This document shows, piece by piece, positions 59,681 to 64,000 of a stretch of DNA of 64,000 nt. The notes beneath the pieces were generated by a model. It searched no databases. It was not told the DNA's origin and saw only the letters and a list, made by a program, of their open reading frames with translations. The stretch's first letter is position 1. Every line of letters begins with the position of its first letter. Source of the stretch: Thermanaeromonas sp. C210 (GTDB lineage: Bacteria > Bacillota > DSM-521 > Neomoorellales > Neomoorellaceae); assembly GCF_013167955.1 (NCBI RefSeq), contig NZ_BLWF01000002.1:413185-477184 (forward strand), in the 5' to 3' direction. A program made the position numbers and the translations under genes.

Positions 59681-60823
59681 CTAGGAGCCTCCGGGCGCCG
59701 GCTCCTCCTCCCAAGACCCGCCGCCGTCCGGCTCATCCGGCAGGACCCACAGGGAATCCTTCTTGAGGGAAACCTGTACCTCCGCCCCGGCCGCCAGCCC
59801 CATATCGCGGAAGACATAGCTGGGTATCTCCAGTTCCACAGTTTCTCCCGAACCGTCCAGGGTGAGGAACACCAGGTAACTGCCGTAACCGTCAAAAAGG
59901 CTGGATATCCGGGCCGGAAAGACATTGGCCTGCACCTTGGGCCGCAGGGGCTTCCCCTCCCGGATGATGACCACTTCCCGGGGGCTCAGGCCGAAGACCA
60001 CCTGCTGTCCTGCTCCCAGCCCCTCCCTCCAGGGCAGTTCACACACAAAACCGCGGGGGGTGCGGGCCACCAGGGACACACCGGGCTCGATATCCGTTAT
60101 GAGGCCCCTAAATACGTTGCGCCCGGCAAACAGCCGCGCCACTCCCAGAGTGGCCGGCCGGTAGTACACTTCTTCCGGCGTCCCGACCTGGTGAAGCTTC
60201 CCCCCCAGCATGACGCCCAGGTGATCGGCCAGCAGGAAGGCCTCTTGGAGGTCGTGGGTAACGTGAATGACGGTGGTCCCCAGCTTGTTGAATACTTCTC
60301 TAAGATAAAGGACTAGCTTGCGCCGTATAAAGCTGTCCAGGGCGGAAAAGGGCTCGTCCAGCAGGATAACCGAGGGTTCCACCAGCAGGGCCCGGGCGAG
60401 GGCCACCCGCTGCTTCTCCCCGCCGCTCAAATGAAGGGGGGATTTCCTTTCGAGCAAGTGTTCGATCTGGAGGAGCCCGGCCAGCTTCCGGGCCCTGTCC
60501 CGGGCCCGGTCGAGGGGCATTTTCCGGGCCCTGGCACCGAAGAGGATGTTATCCATGACCGACAAATGGGGAAACAGGGCCAAATTCTGCGGCAGATAGC
60601 CAATTTTCCTTTCCTCCGGCCGGGCCCGGGTTATATCGCGATCCTCCAGGATAATGGAACCCTTTTTTACGGCGTGGACCCCGCAGATGGTGTCCAAGAG
60701 CAGGGTTTTACCCGAACCCGAAGGGCCTACGATGACCAGGCACCGGCCCCGCTCCACTCTAAAGGATATATCTTGCAGCCGGAACCCCGGGACTTGCACT
60801 TCCACACCGGACAGGTACAGCAT
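59681..60823 (-). CDS. modC: Molybdate/tungstate ABC transporter ATPase
   Basis: 380 residues. Walker A GPSGSGKTLL near residue 33, signature LSGGEKQRVALARAL, Walker B VILLDEPFSALD, H-loop HVTHD. After ~230 comes a C-terminal regulatory beta domain (MOBE/TOBE-like, PKVQANVFPARISSLFDGYGSYLVF) that can sense oxyanion. Overlaps the permease stop by one base (60823). Molybdate versus tungstate cannot be told. Confidence 0.9.
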   Translation of the reverse strand: MLYLSGVEVQVPGFRLQDISFRVERGRCLVIVGPSGSGKTLLLDTICGVHAVKKGSIILEDRDITRARPEERKIGYLPQNLALFPHLSVMDNILFGARARKMPLDRARDRARKLAGLLQIEHLLERKSPLHLSGGEKQRVALARALLVEPSVILLDEPFSALDSFIRRKLVLYLREVFNKLGTTVIHVTHDLQEAFLLADHLGVMLGGKLHQVGTPEEVYYRPATLGVARLFAGRNVFRGLITDIEPGVSLVARTPRGFVCELPWREGLGAGQQVVFGLSPREVVIIREGKPLRPKVQANVFPARISSLFDGYGSYLVFLTLDGSGETVELEIPSYVFRDMGLAAGAEVQVSLKKDSLWVLPDEPDGGGSWEEEPAPGGS

Positions 60824-61617
60824 TAAAAGGCCGCTCTCCTCTCATTATCGAGATAGCGCAGCGAAAGTAACACCAGAAAGGAAACCAACAACAGGATCCA
60901 TATCAGGACCACGGCCTTTTCTATATTGGCGCTGGCCAGGTTCAGGTAGATGGCGATGGGCAGGGTTTCGGTTTTGAATTTGGTGGCCCCGGCCAGGGTG
61001 ACGGTAGCCCCGAATTCTCCCAGAGCCCGGGCCCAGGACAGGATAAAGGCGGAGAGAATCCCCTGCCGGGCCATGGGCAGGGTAACCCGCCAAAAGGCTC
61101 CCCCGCTGCTTTCGCCCAGAAGGCGGGCCGTCAGCTCATAATGGGTATCGATGGAATCGAAGACGGCTTTGATCAACCGTATGGCCAGGGCCAGGGTTAT
61201 GGTCGTCTGGGCCACGATGATACCCGCCGGGGTGAAAACGACGGGGATTAGGTGCTGCTGGATCCACAGGCCGACGGGTTGGTTGAAAAAAATCAACAGG
61301 AGGGCGCCCAGGGCGATGGGGGAAACTCCCGTCGGCAGGTCCAGTACGGTGTCCACCAGGATTTTCCCCCGGAAAGGACGGCGGGATAACAGATAGGCCA
61401 CGGGCGTGCCCAGGATTACGGCCAGGGAGGCGGACACCAGGGATGTTTTAAGGGAGAGGCCGAGGGCGAACTGTATCTCCTTGTCCTGCAAGCTCTCCAG
61501 TAGAATATCAGGCCTAACATACGGTATCTGGGCCAAAAACAAGAGTAAGAAGTAGGCCAGGACGATTCCCAAAAGGCCTGTAGTGGCCAGGTTGAAAGCA
61601 TCCTTTTTCTTCATCAC
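60823..61617 (-). CDS. modB: Molybdate/tungstate ABC transporter permease
   Basis: 264 residues, six membrane segments; the EAA loop, carrying ARLLGESSGGAFWRVTLPMARQGILSAFILSWARALGEFGATVTLAG, is diagnostic of ModB-type permeases. Operates with modC and modA. ATG 61617 lies 16 bases beyond the modA stop. Confidence 0.93.
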   Translation of the reverse strand: MMKKKDAFNLATTGLLGIVLAYFLLLFLAQIPYVRPDILLESLQDKEIQFALGLSLKTSLVSASLAVILGTPVAYLLSRRPFRGKILVDTVLDLPTGVSPIALGALLLIFFNQPVGLWIQQHLIPVVFTPAGIIVAQTTITLALAIRLIKAVFDSIDTHYELTARLLGESSGGAFWRVTLPMARQGILSAFILSWARALGEFGATVTLAGATKFKTETLPIAIYLNLASANIEKAVVLIWILLLVSFLVLLSLRYLDNERRAAF

Positions 61618-61632: not shown

Positions 61633-62517
61633 TTACCAGGGGTTTTGGAGGCGGTACTCCCCGCCCACGGGGGCCTGGGGAGCCAGCCGGCGGGCTTCCT
61701 CCTCGGTGGTCAGGTAGCCCCATTTTTTAAAGACAGCCTTGCCTTCTTCAGAAGTAAGATAATCGATGAACTGCTGGGCCAAATCCCTCTGGGTGGAATA
61801 GCTGGAAACGGCCACCGGGATGTAGCCGATCCTGGACACCTTCTCCGGGGGCAGGTAGATGGTTTCGATTTTATCCGGATTCCAGGAAGCAAATACTTCC
61901 CAGCCCAGCACGGCGTCCACCTGTCCCAGGGCCACCAGGTTGGCCACCTTTTCGCAGCTTTCCACATAAGTAACGATGTTTTCCTTCACTTCGGAATCCA
62001 AGCCGGCCTTTTCCAAAATCTCCGCTCCGTAAAGGCCCACACAGACCGTGTCCGGCCGGGCCATACCTACCTTTACGCCGGGTTTGGCCAGATCTTCTAG
62101 GCCCTGAATGCCTTGGGGATTGCCTTTAGGAACGTTGATAGCGGGGACCAGGTAGACCACGATCCTCTCGGTTTCCGGCAGCACTACCCCTTCCTTTTTG
62201 GCCAGCTCCATGAAATCCGAGGAACCCGGCAGGTAAATATCCCCCTGCTTGCTCAATTTCATCTGGCTCAGGACCGCGCCCGACCCGCCGAAGGTGAGAG
62301 TCACCCTGGTGCCCGTCCTGGCTTCGAACCTGGCCGCGATCTCTTCCAGGGGAGGCTTGCTGGCCGACCCGGCAAACACCCTGATCTCCCGGGCGGTAGC
62401 CACCCCTTCCCCTCCCCTTTCCGGGCGGCCGGCGCAGCCGCCCAGCAGGGCGCTCGCCATTGCCATGGCCATTACCACCGCCGCCAGCATCCATAAGAAG
62501 TGCCGCCTGCCGCTCAA
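61633..62517 (-). CDS. modA: Molybdate/tungstate-binding lipoprotein
   Basis: 294 residues. Lipoprotein signal WMLAAVVMAMAMASALLGGC with lipid-attachment Cys near residue 27, then a type II periplasmic-binding fold starting REIRVFAGSASKPPLEEIAARFEARTG. LTFGGSGAVLSQMKLSKQGDIYLPGSSDFM contains the Ser/Thr anion-binding positions. The start is TTG 62517 because GGAGG stands six bases upstream; the 33-codon upstream extension runs through the leader RNA and is rejected. Confidence 0.92.
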   Translation of the reverse strand: MSGRRHFLWMLAAVVMAMAMASALLGGCAGRPERGGEGVATAREIRVFAGSASKPPLEEIAARFEARTGTRVTLTFGGSGAVLSQMKLSKQGDIYLPGSSDFMELAKKEGVVLPETERIVVYLVPAINVPKGNPQGIQGLEDLAKPGVKVGMARPDTVCVGLYGAEILEKAGLDSEVKENIVTYVESCEKVANLVALGQVDAVLGWEVFASWNPDKIETIYLPPEKVSRIGYIPVAVSSYSTQRDLAQQFIDYLTSEEGKAVFKKWGYLTTEEEARRLAPQAPVGGEYRLQNPW

Positions 62518-62645
62518 GGTTATCCTCCCCCTCAATCTTCCTAAAAGATAACCCCGGCTCGCAAAGGATGCCGGGGTCTGTTCCGCGTGGTCCAAACCTT
62601 TCTCCTTTCCGAGCAAGGGGAGGCATGCCCGTTTCCCGGCATACC
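62518..62645 (-). ncRNA. Candidate Moco-type riboswitch leader of modABC
   Basis: Minus strand: a closing helix P1 pairs ATGCCGGG (62635-62642) with the facing CCCCGGCAT (62568-62576). Inside lie ACGGGCATGCCTCCC and GGAAAGGAGAAAGG, which look like Moco-riboswitch segments from memory. The 3' strand of P1 can instead pair with GCCGGGG at 62552-62558, giving an alternative hairpin followed by TTATCTTTT. GGTTATC (62547-62553) can pair with GATAACC (62518-62524), next to the modA Shine-Dalgarno site. Class assignment is from recalled features only. Confidence 0.6.
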
Positions 62646-62889
62646 CCGTGGGCTATATTTTAGCCCAGGCCGGCTGGCCATAGATCTGACCCTTGCTTAA
62701 GGGCTCGTCCTTAGGCTCAACCGGCTCGGAGAAAGATATCAAATTTTGTCGGCTACTTCCACGTTCTTATCATACCCTATCGTATCCAGCCCGTCAAGGA
62801 TGCCCGGTGGTGCGCCCCTAAACTCGTATTTGCAGGTCGCATACCCGGGTACCCGCGTTTTTGCCGGCTCTTGACACGGGACACGGGCT

Positions 62890-63174
62890 TCATGTCCGGG
62901 TGCCTATTTTCGAACCGAACATCTGTCGGCTTCCGGTGGCGGAAACGGCGACTAACAGGCCGTTTAACAAATATAGCGGGATATCTCTGAACGAGAAATT
63001 ACCTGTAGCCAGGTTCGTTATTATAATAAGTGTTAAGGCGACGGTTAGAATTAGGCCGCGCATCGACCATCCCTTTAACCTTCCAATATTCTTGAGAAAC
63101 TCCACCACCAATAAAGTAGCCATAGCGGCTCCGGATAAGGTAGCGAGATCGGCGTAGGTAAATAAGCCCTCCAT
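62890..63174 (-). CDS. Small membrane protein, holin-like
   Basis: 94 residues with three hydrophobic segments: LATLSGAAMATLLVVEFL, MRGLILTVALTLIIITNLA and IPLYLLNGLLVAV. The N-terminal layout resembles phage holins and the YvrJ-related group. ATG 63174 has GGAAGGGGGGAAAGCC upstream, better than ATG 63192. Divergent from the riboswitch-controlled gene. Not assigned to a named family with confidence. Confidence 0.6.
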   Translation of the reverse strand: MEGLFTYADLATLSGAAMATLLVVEFLKNIGRLKGWSMRGLILTVALTLIIITNLATGNFSFRDIPLYLLNGLLVAVSATGSRQMFGSKIGTRT

Positions 63175-63389
63175 GGCTTTCCCCCCTTCCATGTAAACTG
63201 AGCCGGCCTCGGGCTCTCGAGTGAAATTCCTAAGGCTCGGTACCTTCTACTCCCTAAAGAGGGAAGAACTGCCCCTTTTAATAACCCAGTCGTCCGGAGG
63301 CCCTTCCTTCCAAACCCGAAACCGGGACGCCAGCCTGTCCCCAATTGATCGACGCACCAGTATGCTTATTATTCCAGATCAGTAACCAA
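63175..63389. other. Divergent intergenic region
   Basis: 215 bases between the holin-like gene and the riboswitch promoter. No supported coding region. It is moderately GC-rich to 63350 and AT-rich after. No operator recognised. Confidence 0.35.
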
Positions 63390-63418
63390 TTGCCATATCC
63401 TGACTTCTAGTATATAAT
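63390..63418 (+). promoter_or_regulatory. Sigma-A promoter of the c-di-GMP riboswitch gene
   Basis: TTGCCA (63390-63395) and TATAAT (63413-63418) are separated by 17 bases. It lies ~50 bases before the aptamer. Confidence 0.75.
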
Positions 63419-63471
63419 GGATGCGTAACTACAGAAGAAGGATATATTTGCTCCCCACAACCTAATAGTTC

Positions 63472-63558
63472 GAGTGCCAAAGGCAAACTTACCGAAAGGT
63501 GAGGACGCAAAGCCATAGGGTCTAAAGTACCAACTGGTACTATGACAGCCTGGCTGCC
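63472..63558 (+). ncRNA. Cyclic-di-GMP-I (GEMM) riboswitch aptamer
   Basis: Conserved core seen in order: GCCAAAGGCAAAC, a GAAA tetraloop in ACCGAAAGGT, GGACGCAAAGCC with the GEMM core ACGCAAAGCC, a second variable helix (GTACCAACTGGTAC) and the closing GACAGCCTGGCTGCC. Followed by a terminator hairpin and a gene on the same strand, so the arrangement is that of a transcriptional riboswitch. Confidence 0.92.
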
Positions 63559-63576
63559 ACTTGAAGCCCATTAAAC

Positions 63577-63608
63577 CTGCCCTCATCTTTGGGGCAGACT
63601 TTTTTGTC
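63577..63608 (+). terminator. Riboswitch expression-platform terminator
   Basis: CTGCCC (63577-63582) pairs with GGGCAG (63592-63597), loop TCATCTTTG, followed by ACTTTTTTGTC. It lies between the aptamer and the gene start at 63630, so c-di-GMP could control read-through. Confidence 0.8.
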
Positions 63609-63629
63609 TTCTGGGGAGGGCAAAACTTC

Positions 63630-63893
63630 ATGTCGAGAAAGGTTAAACTACGGGAGTTAATTATGAAGGCCCAAGCTGGTGACCAAGAAGCCCTCGCCGA
63701 GCTGATTCAGCGCTTTAGCCCGGTAATTAAGAAATACAGCCGCCGCCTAGGTTATGATTATGAGGAAGCACGCTCTGACTTGGTAGCCTGGATAGTAGAC
63801 GCCGTTCGCCGATACAAGCCCAAAACCCCGTGGGGAAGGAGCGAACTAGAGCAATACTTTTCAGAAAAGAATAATCGCGGAAAATCATCTTGA
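63630..63893 (+). CDS. Small sigma-70-like helix-turn-helix protein
   Basis: 87 residues, starting MSRKVKLRELIMKAQAGDQEALAELIQRF and continuing IKKYSRRLGYDYEEARSDLVAWIVDAVRRYKP. The N-terminal part resembles sigma region 2 (core-binding), as in small sigma-like regulators of conjugative elements and phages. No region 4 is present, so it is probably not a complete sigma factor. ATG 63630 with GGGGAGGG nine bases upstream; the frame begins at 63561 inside the riboswitch terminator, so this start is better. Controlled by the c-di-GMP-I riboswitch. Confidence 0.75.
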   Translation: MSRKVKLRELIMKAQAGDQEALAELIQRFSPVIKKYSRRLGYDYEEARSDLVAWIVDAVRRYKPKTPWGRSELEQYFSEKNNRGKSS

Positions 63894-64000
63894 CAGTTGG
63901 GTATGGGGGGTATTAACAGCCTCTTCTCCTTCTCTTTAATTATTGTAACGAGATATGTAGGTTAAAAGGAGGCGCAGAACTATGTCCCCCTAAGCCTGAA
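63894..64000 (+). other. Intergenic end of window with a strong RBS before a 3-codon ORF
   Basis: AAAAGGAGGCGCAGAACT precedes an ATG near 63982, which is followed by TCC CCC TAA, a three-codon frame. A TTGACA (63890-63895) and TATTAA (63911-63916) are 15 bases apart. The next gene probably starts just beyond the window, or a leader peptide is present. Confidence 0.4.

Follow-up and report, generated by a model that had tools for sequence, protein, structure and literature searches.

What does a c-di-GMP riboswitch control when the gene directly behind it encodes a sigma-like protein of only 87 residues? The question arises at positions 63390 to 63893 of the window, by which we mean the whole stretch of 64,000 nucleotides from Thermanaeromonas sp. 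C210 analysed here, and for which an earlier note had described a c-di-GMP aptamer, a terminator, and a clear gene order with a sigma-like target of 87 residues. These elements were confirmed, and the leader and its first gene are composed as follows:

63390..63418, + strand: sigma-A-like promoter of the riboswitch transcript (TTGCCA-17-TATAAT, 11 of 12 consensus matches)
63472..63561, + strand: c-di-GMP-I riboswitch aptamer (RF01051)
63495..63510, + strand: candidate antiterminator half, an aptamer segment (3' strand of P2 and the next bases) complementary to the left arm of the terminator (predicted duplex −14.7 kcal/mol, z −2.18 against shuffles)
63577..63605, + strand: intrinsic terminator hairpin with T run (hairpin −11.4 kcal/mol)
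63630..63893, + strand: sigma2 gene, 87 amino acids (P0002), the predicted front part of region 2 of a split sigma factor (HTH_16 match; relatives)

The aptamer, the only one of the c-di-GMP-I class identified in the window by cmscan, scored 79.9 bits against a gathering threshold of 35 (E-value of 4.2e-14 for the window), and its alignment meets all capital letters of the consensus with no pair flagged as non-standard. At the position that we take to determine ligand specificity (G20, with an A there presumably marking the cGAMP-binding variant), the aptamer has G and not A (AAAGGCAAAC aligned to consensus aGGCAAA). The terminator-like hairpin at 63577-63597 is followed by ACTTTTTTGT; promoter-like and terminator-like patterns are not rare in themselves, as 5 sites of each kind were counted in 1.5 kb against 1.4 and 2.2 expected, respectively. 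The genome contains seven c-di-GMP-I switches in all, and the other six, with reading frames identified by eye, precede a pilus gene (L004), chemotaxis receptors (L002 and L005), an HD-domain gene (L006), flgB-like flagellar genes (L007), and an unclear gene (L001). The split-sigma switch is thus the odd one of the seven in its target; the earlier note had contrasted that target with the motility, surface, and catabolic genes of the class. The passage of c-di-GMP information to a sigma factor is by itself less novel than the note had stated, with precedents in flgB/sigD of C. difficile and RsiG-WhiG of Streptomyces (a pair named in the title of structure 7lq4). The switch of the pilus gene (G000:C3:148873-148959) lies, by eye, within a pilus operon and is flanked by pilT-like and pilC-like genes.

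Relatives of the sigma2 gene occupy 32 distinct loci, and 21 of these have a c-di-GMP-I or c-di-GMP-I-GGC aptamer 5' of the gene on its own strand. This recurrence excludes a chance juxtaposition in the window. These 32 loci have a recognisable first subunit and were obtained by merging duplicates and excluding the fragment L093; some of the 21 riboswitch loci are near copies of each other (L050 and L051; L049, L108, and L114), and no riboswitch was found nearby in L054, L056, L057, L092, L096, L105, L107, L109, L110, L111, and L113. Locus L137 has two c-di-GMP-I aptamers (6-79 and 916-1005; 40.3 and 81.4 bits) about 0.9 kb apart and 5' of the first sigma gene. A terminator-like hairpin was present between aptamer and first gene in all 19 of the riboswitch leaders searched (the 21 less L050 and L053, with no shuffled sequences as control). 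The best pairing partner of the terminator's left arm and loop was determined in 18 leaders: in 14 it is a common aptamer region, made up of the 3' strand of P2 and the bases beyond (overlapping positions 22-44), and in L052, L098, L099, and L103 it lies elsewhere; the scores are modest (mean z −1.0, positive in L095 and L097), and the leaders share ancestry. The aptamer needs this region for its folding. The switch is predicted to be OFF, with c-di-GMP favouring termination, because the ligand-bound aptamer would free the terminator's left arm. An ON switch, in which ligand binding prevents termination, is conceivable given that c-di-GMP-I switches of either sign exist, but we consider it doubtful, since in those 14 leaders the terminator arm pairs best with an aptamer region essential for folding, and termination should then be what the ligand promotes. 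Whether the switch is OFF or ON is among the most uncertain points of our analysis.

The protein behind the switch resembles region 2 of sigma factors, as the earlier note had proposed, but it would be only the front part of a sigma factor encoded by two genes, the second of which lies at the edge of the window:

63964..63972, + strand: ribosome-binding site AAAAGGAGG of the sigma4 gene
63982..63993, + strand: start-stop element ATG TCC CCC TAA of the sigma4 gene, relative to which the conserved sigma4 frame is −1/+2
63984..64000, + strand: first bases of the sigma4 reading frame; the frame runs on past the window as far as C2:477611 of the genome

The sigma4 gene starts at the window edge, and its protein as analysed here (P0003; L003:2061-2453, equivalent to C2:477216-477608) lies past that edge and matches Sigma70_r4 with 42.5 bits against a cut-off of 24.1. 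P0002 matches Pfam HTH_16 with 36.8 bits against a cut-off of 22, and its matches to region 2 of several sigma-factor models are weak and below their cut-offs. Taken alone, the likeness of sigma2 to sigma factors is weak, and a search of the sigma2 profile against solved structures gave no convincing match (best sigma match with an E-value of 0.048). The two adjacent reading frames nevertheless jointly tile one sigma-70 model, TIGR02937 (165 positions), with P0002 covering positions 1-49 below the cut-off (13.5 bits, E-value of 0.041) and P0003 covering positions 64-165 above it (51.8 bits against 42.9); the sigma4 relative of L098 covers positions 50-165 with 49.7 bits, and PHROG 351 was also matched in two halves (487-554 and 625-728). 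These alignments place the split inside region 2, such that sigma4 would carry the remainder of region 2 together with region 4. In the AlphaFold model of sigma4 (mean pLDDT of 70.9), a long helix comes first and the region-4 domain is well predicted; the best match of the model in the PDB is S. aureus SigB in an RNA polymerase-promoter complex, with an E-value of 3.8e-4. The two products would presumably pair as subunits.

The gap between the sigma2 and sigma4 genes provides a candidate for how the second half is transcribed. When the gaps of the loci were aligned, they contained a conserved element similar to GGGKTATTAAAA-N13/14-CTCTTTATATRGTAG; we refer to it as P* (GGGTTATTAAAA-N14-CTCTTTA). 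A matrix was built from 26 sites, none of them from the window's genome (27 loci were entered, of which L099 gave no site, and L054, L055, L056, L058, and L097 were outside the training set), and was applied to the 127,906 positions of the window. The two best scores fall upstream of the sigma4 gene and, on the opposite strand, upstream of the divergent holin-like gene, and the next unrelated place scores 11.3 bits:

63905..63938, + strand: P* of the sigma4 gene (second best of 127,906 positions, 29.3 bits, site counted from 63907)
63248..63287, − strand: P* of the holin-like gene (best of 127,906 positions, 35.0 bits, site at 63287)
62890..63174, − strand: divergent holin-like gene, 94 amino acids from an ATG (63174) conserved in relatives (PHROG 1129, predicted fold)

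Scanning of the window genome with a fixed-gap P* pattern allowing up to 3 mismatches gave one match, the holin site with 0 mismatches, and the reversed control also gave one; over seven genomes, the same pattern gave 22 matches compared with 8 in the reversed control. A shorter pattern gave 12 matches at 10 places (two doubled by overlap) in five of seven genomes, with 1 in the reversed control. One P* match, at G000:C4:374283, is antisense inside a gene and was taken as chance. Elsewhere in the family, P* is found before holin genes as well (L096, L097, and L112) and upstream of recombinase-side regions (L048, L049, L099, L103, L108, L119, and L127). On the recombinase side, at L048:4194(−), L119:1534(−), L127:1534(−), L049:6947(+), and L108:6577(+), P* is followed, in place of a start codon, by a conserved non-coding stretch, TTCTTTGACA..TTAGCGC..CACCGCCCGG.., which lies ahead of the recombinase-side genes; it is possibly an RNA or regulatory element, and an Rfam scan of the stretch in records L090, L106, and L108 gave no match.

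The holin-like gene had been noted before as lying near the switch, and its product is holin-like by PHROG and by predicted fold, though weakly so, but it is more than a neighbour, as it carries the conserved P* and has a counterpart in the same cluster in relatives. By sequence, the match of its product to PHROG 1129 is weak (E-value of 0.0047), and no match was found in Pfam or NCBIfam. Its predicted structure contains three helices (pLDDT of 69), for which the best viral match by Foldseek is a phage holin (E-value of 4.9e-3, TM-score of 0.68), with no match at an E-value of 0.001 or less. Relatives of the gene are present in the same locus in 18 of 33 cases (the 32 sigma2 loci and L112; those in L092 and L113 are only partial), and their placement varies from the interval between riboswitch and sigma2 gene (L048, L051, and L095) to 3' of the sigma genes (L102, L137, and L139) and the divergent arrangement of the window. 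In L056, a holin of the BhlA family (PF10960; 60.2 bits against 22.6) lies directly 3' of the sigma4 gene and is an unrelated holin in the same place. The window protein is therefore treated as a putative holin.

We propose, with a probability of roughly 0.7 for the explanation as a whole, that the locus encodes a riboswitch-gated two-gene sigma factor with P* feedback and holin-linked release. The c-di-GMP-I riboswitch would gate production of sigma2, the front of region 2, by transcription termination, and sigma4, with the rest of region 2 and region 4, would be transcribed from P*. The assembled sigma factor is presumably what recognises P*, which would create a positive feedback loop, and the same holoenzyme would transcribe the holin-like gene from its divergent P*. 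Next to the sigma pair, many relatives have a variable gene whose product is a leaderless cell-wall hydrolase or some other protein. A fall in c-di-GMP would relieve termination and arm the sigma factor, and the proteins would then be released through the holin by secretion or programmed lysis. This proposal refines the earlier interpretation, which is partly supported, by adding the second sigma gene and a presumed promoter motif of the system's own 5' of that gene and of the holin gene.

The two-gene sigma factor is rare and patchy in the phylum. At an E-value of 1e-22 or less, the sigma4 profile matched 13 of 398 genomes of the phylum, the genome of the window included; relatives of P0002 were found in 14 among 81 genomes at 0.001 or less, and in G000, G002, G019, G041, G048, G053, and G057 at 1e-12 or less. 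A scan of named genomes gave 27 loci, including those of Desulfofundulus thermobenzoicus, Thermosediminibacter litoriperuensis, Desulfotruncus arcticus, Pelotomaculum, Thermoanaerobacter thermocopriae (decayed), and several metagenome-assembled genomes (MAGs). Visibly decayed copies are L054, L093, L112, and L113; L112 contains two copies of P* with sigma4 (5876 and 8449) in one locus, both of which are broken. Such copies raise the alternative that an ordinary c-di-GMP-I switch precedes a sigma or phage remnant which has degenerated and lost its function, the split and the frame changes being decay, and this would also account for a sigma4 gene in the window that is out of frame with its own start and for the lack of an exoprotein gene directly 3' of it in this genome. 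We nevertheless regard decay as very unlikely, as the split, P*, and the +1 frame relation described below persist over deep branches, 18 of 19 sigma4 matches in the 398 genomes have no stop inside the match (a few are partial), and both P* sites have been kept as the two best of 127,906 positions in the window.

Under the proposed two-gene sigma factor, the start of the sigma4 gene calls for its own explanation. With ribosome site and start codon assigned by hand in 32 loci, the conserved sigma4 frame was found in +1 relative to the start, with an early stop, in 20, in frame in nine, and in −1/+2 in three (the window, L008; L102; and L113); L144 is +1 by eye, and L093, L109, and L140 fell outside the frame assignment. 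Each of the 20 +1 loci has a start (ATG in 18, GTG in L056, and ATT in L110), 3-5 further codons, and a stop, after which the conserved frame continues in +1. In 15 of the 20, a Thr codon (ACN) directly precedes the stop; the stop itself is UGA in 15 and is followed by C in 10, and the exact sequence UAC ACC UGA C occurs in five. Distances from start to conserved core in the +1 loci take seven values between 25 and 55 nt, all of them 1 mod 3. When 30 sigma4 proteins were placed on a tree, a single clade (84/84) united seven in-frame loci, L107 and L109 (the latter unsure) fell elsewhere, and the +1 loci filled the remaining deep branches; 10 of the 27 inner branches of this tree are weak.

Across the family, the frame change is probably a programmed frameshift, and in most relatives the sigma4 message would also need a +1 ribosomal shift 4-6 codons past the start, a second lock against leaky expression. 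The short reading frames could instead be leader peptides followed by re-initiation, with no frameshift site involved. They do carry good ribosome sites, and among the 22 loci that are not in frame, a start codon in the frame of sigma4 is available 5' of the core in five (L097, L099, L103, L110, and L140) and slightly inside the core in 12. We judge re-initiation quite unlikely all the same: in six of the 22 (L056, L102, L104, L105, L111, and L112) no ATG, GTG, or TTG exists in the sigma4 frame from the preceding stop to the conserved W, the inner starts come only after a conserved [ED][ED]AR, the relation is +1 in 20 of 23 start-stop loci, at seven distinct spacings, and the in-frame relatives have a comparable start distance. 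In the window itself, a programmed frameshift at ATG TCC CCC TAA would need to be −1 (or +2); the run of five C could slip, or the copy could be damaged, and the activity of this copy and the mechanism of frameshifting are also among the most uncertain points.

Several further ideas about the frame change were rejected. A suppressor or odd tRNA as agent was dropped because ordinary tRNAs are present in four of 21 loci scanned and none in the other 17, and non-AUG sigma4 starts were dropped after inspection by eye found no candidate common to the lineages. An apparent frameshift in an effector of L103, which seemed to have its in-frame counterpart in L099, was discarded, as the two frames diverge after a short stretch. 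A strict frameshift-cassette pattern gave 15 matches in the 398 genomes compared with 5 in the reversed control; three of the 15 are at sigma4 (G002, G019, and G129) and 12 are elsewhere, and we make no claim that the cassette is used more widely.

In 15 of 30 loci, the gene that comes first 3' of sigma4 on the forward strand encodes a leaderless protein, acting on the cell wall or of another kind; recombinase-side genes follow in five (L049, L098, L099, L103, and L108), and the remaining 10, the window included, have neither class or something else. Proteins encoded directly 3' of or near sigma4 include Amidase_3 (L051 and L112), Peptidase_M15_3 (L092), an Rv2525c-like glycoside hydrolase (L055), NAGPA (L052), and a 1326-residue SH3/PG-binding/M14/Ntox44 protein (L058); weak matches below cut-off to transglycosylase, glucosaminidase, and DPBB were obtained in L107, L113, and L095, and Pfam gave no match for some proteins directly after or near sigma4. 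The highest N-terminal hydropathy was 1.57 or less in all 19 slot or nearby proteins, compared with 2.75 and 2.77 in two Sec-like controls. By this measure the proteins lack a leader, which is what one would expect of cargo passing through a holin-like pore. No exoprotein gene directly follows sigma4 in the window genome, and the next gene on the + strand, about 0.8 kb on, encodes PG_binding_1 and YkuD domains. A pemK RNA (RF02913) lies 3' of the sigma genes in two loci, L099:7544-7638 and L103:5754-5831.

Resolvase/Recombinase or Phage_integrase genes lie close to the sigma genes in L048, L049, L051, L098, L099, L103, and L108, some of them downstream of P*, and in L104 phage tail-sheath domains (L104:1323-2729) occur after a gene for a 159-residue protein 3' of sigma4, a cluster possibly encoding a phage tail-like particle. 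The locus might then be cargo of a mobile element or of such a particle, serving excision or host lysis. That we rate as unlikely, given viral contigs without a sigma4 relative, only weak matches (31-40% identity) in two plasmid records (annotated as sigma-70 family) and two unannotated phage records, which also led us to reject a viral, plasmid, or phage origin, and a 14-kb stretch of the window genome that by eye contains no recombinase. Recombinase genes and the variable exoprotein slot of other loci could reflect cassette exchange. For the strongest form of our proposal, a holin-release circuit with three locks in which c-di-GMP controls one sigma half by termination, a conserved programmed frameshift in the first codons controls the other half, and the joined sigma factor activates its own promoter, the holin gene, and a swappable slot for leaderless cell-wall enzymes, we see even odds.

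How does the proposed circuit compare with known systems? The clostridial group-5 loci TcdR-TcdE and UviA-UviB, as described in PMC9527704, have a sigma factor and a holin flanking leaderless exported proteins and an endolysin, with the sigma factor presumably driving the neighbours, and UviB is given there as a BhlA-family holin. Many relatives of our locus likewise have sigma, holin-like gene, and leaderless cell-wall or exported proteins side by side (the window has sigma and holin only), and L056 shares the BhlA-family holin with UviB. Unlike these loci, ours has a sigma factor split in two genes, a c-di-GMP riboswitch, a frame change at the start of sigma4, and a −35-like box that reads GGGTTATTAAAA compared with their TTTACA, as stated in PMC4031146. 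A sigma factor made of two proteins is known from Bacillus subtilis SigO-RsoA, a natural AND gate according to PMC10028694. Sigma2-like and sigma4-like parts are on two proteins here too, but the RsoA model (NF041489) scored only 16.3 bits against a cut-off of 100, a separation made at the level of the family model. We know of no riboswitch, holin, or frameshift in SigO-RsoA. By the tests made, the locus belongs to neither system.

The aptamer is the same as that of the c-di-GMP-I switches on motility, pili, and chemotaxis genes, from which the switch here differs in that its target is a split sigma factor and, through P*, presumably the holin-like gene. The frame change can be set beside prfB, the gene of release factor 2, where a programmed +1 frameshift takes place at a slippery CUU codon just before the stop. 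As in prfB, an early in-frame stop precedes a gene continuing in +1 (20 of 32 loci; the window copy is −1), but the stop is only 4-6 codons from the start, and the codon before it is Thr in most cases and CUU in none. A literature search, for which most subscription papers were beyond reach, returned no c-di-GMP riboswitch with such a sigma and holin pair and no frameshifted sigma factor. If the reading with three locks is true, no earlier sigma factor is known to us to be made by programmed frameshifting.

If correct, the proposed circuit would give the second messenger of the motile/sessile switch a direct line to a dedicated sigma factor and to a device for release, in anaerobes whose holin-dependent secretion has been little studied. 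It would also provide a natural sigma factor whose assembly is controlled three times over, by termination of transcription, by the frame of translation, and by the pairing of its subunits. The P* motif and the start-stop elements are compact and amenable to laboratory testing.

The window also contains a riboswitch of the molybdenum/tungsten (Moco) class, at 62586-62743 on the − strand (78.8 bits). It lies upstream of genes that by eye encode an ABC-type substrate-binding protein, a permease, and an ATPase (61633-62616, 60823-61617, and 59681-60823, respectively, on the − strand).
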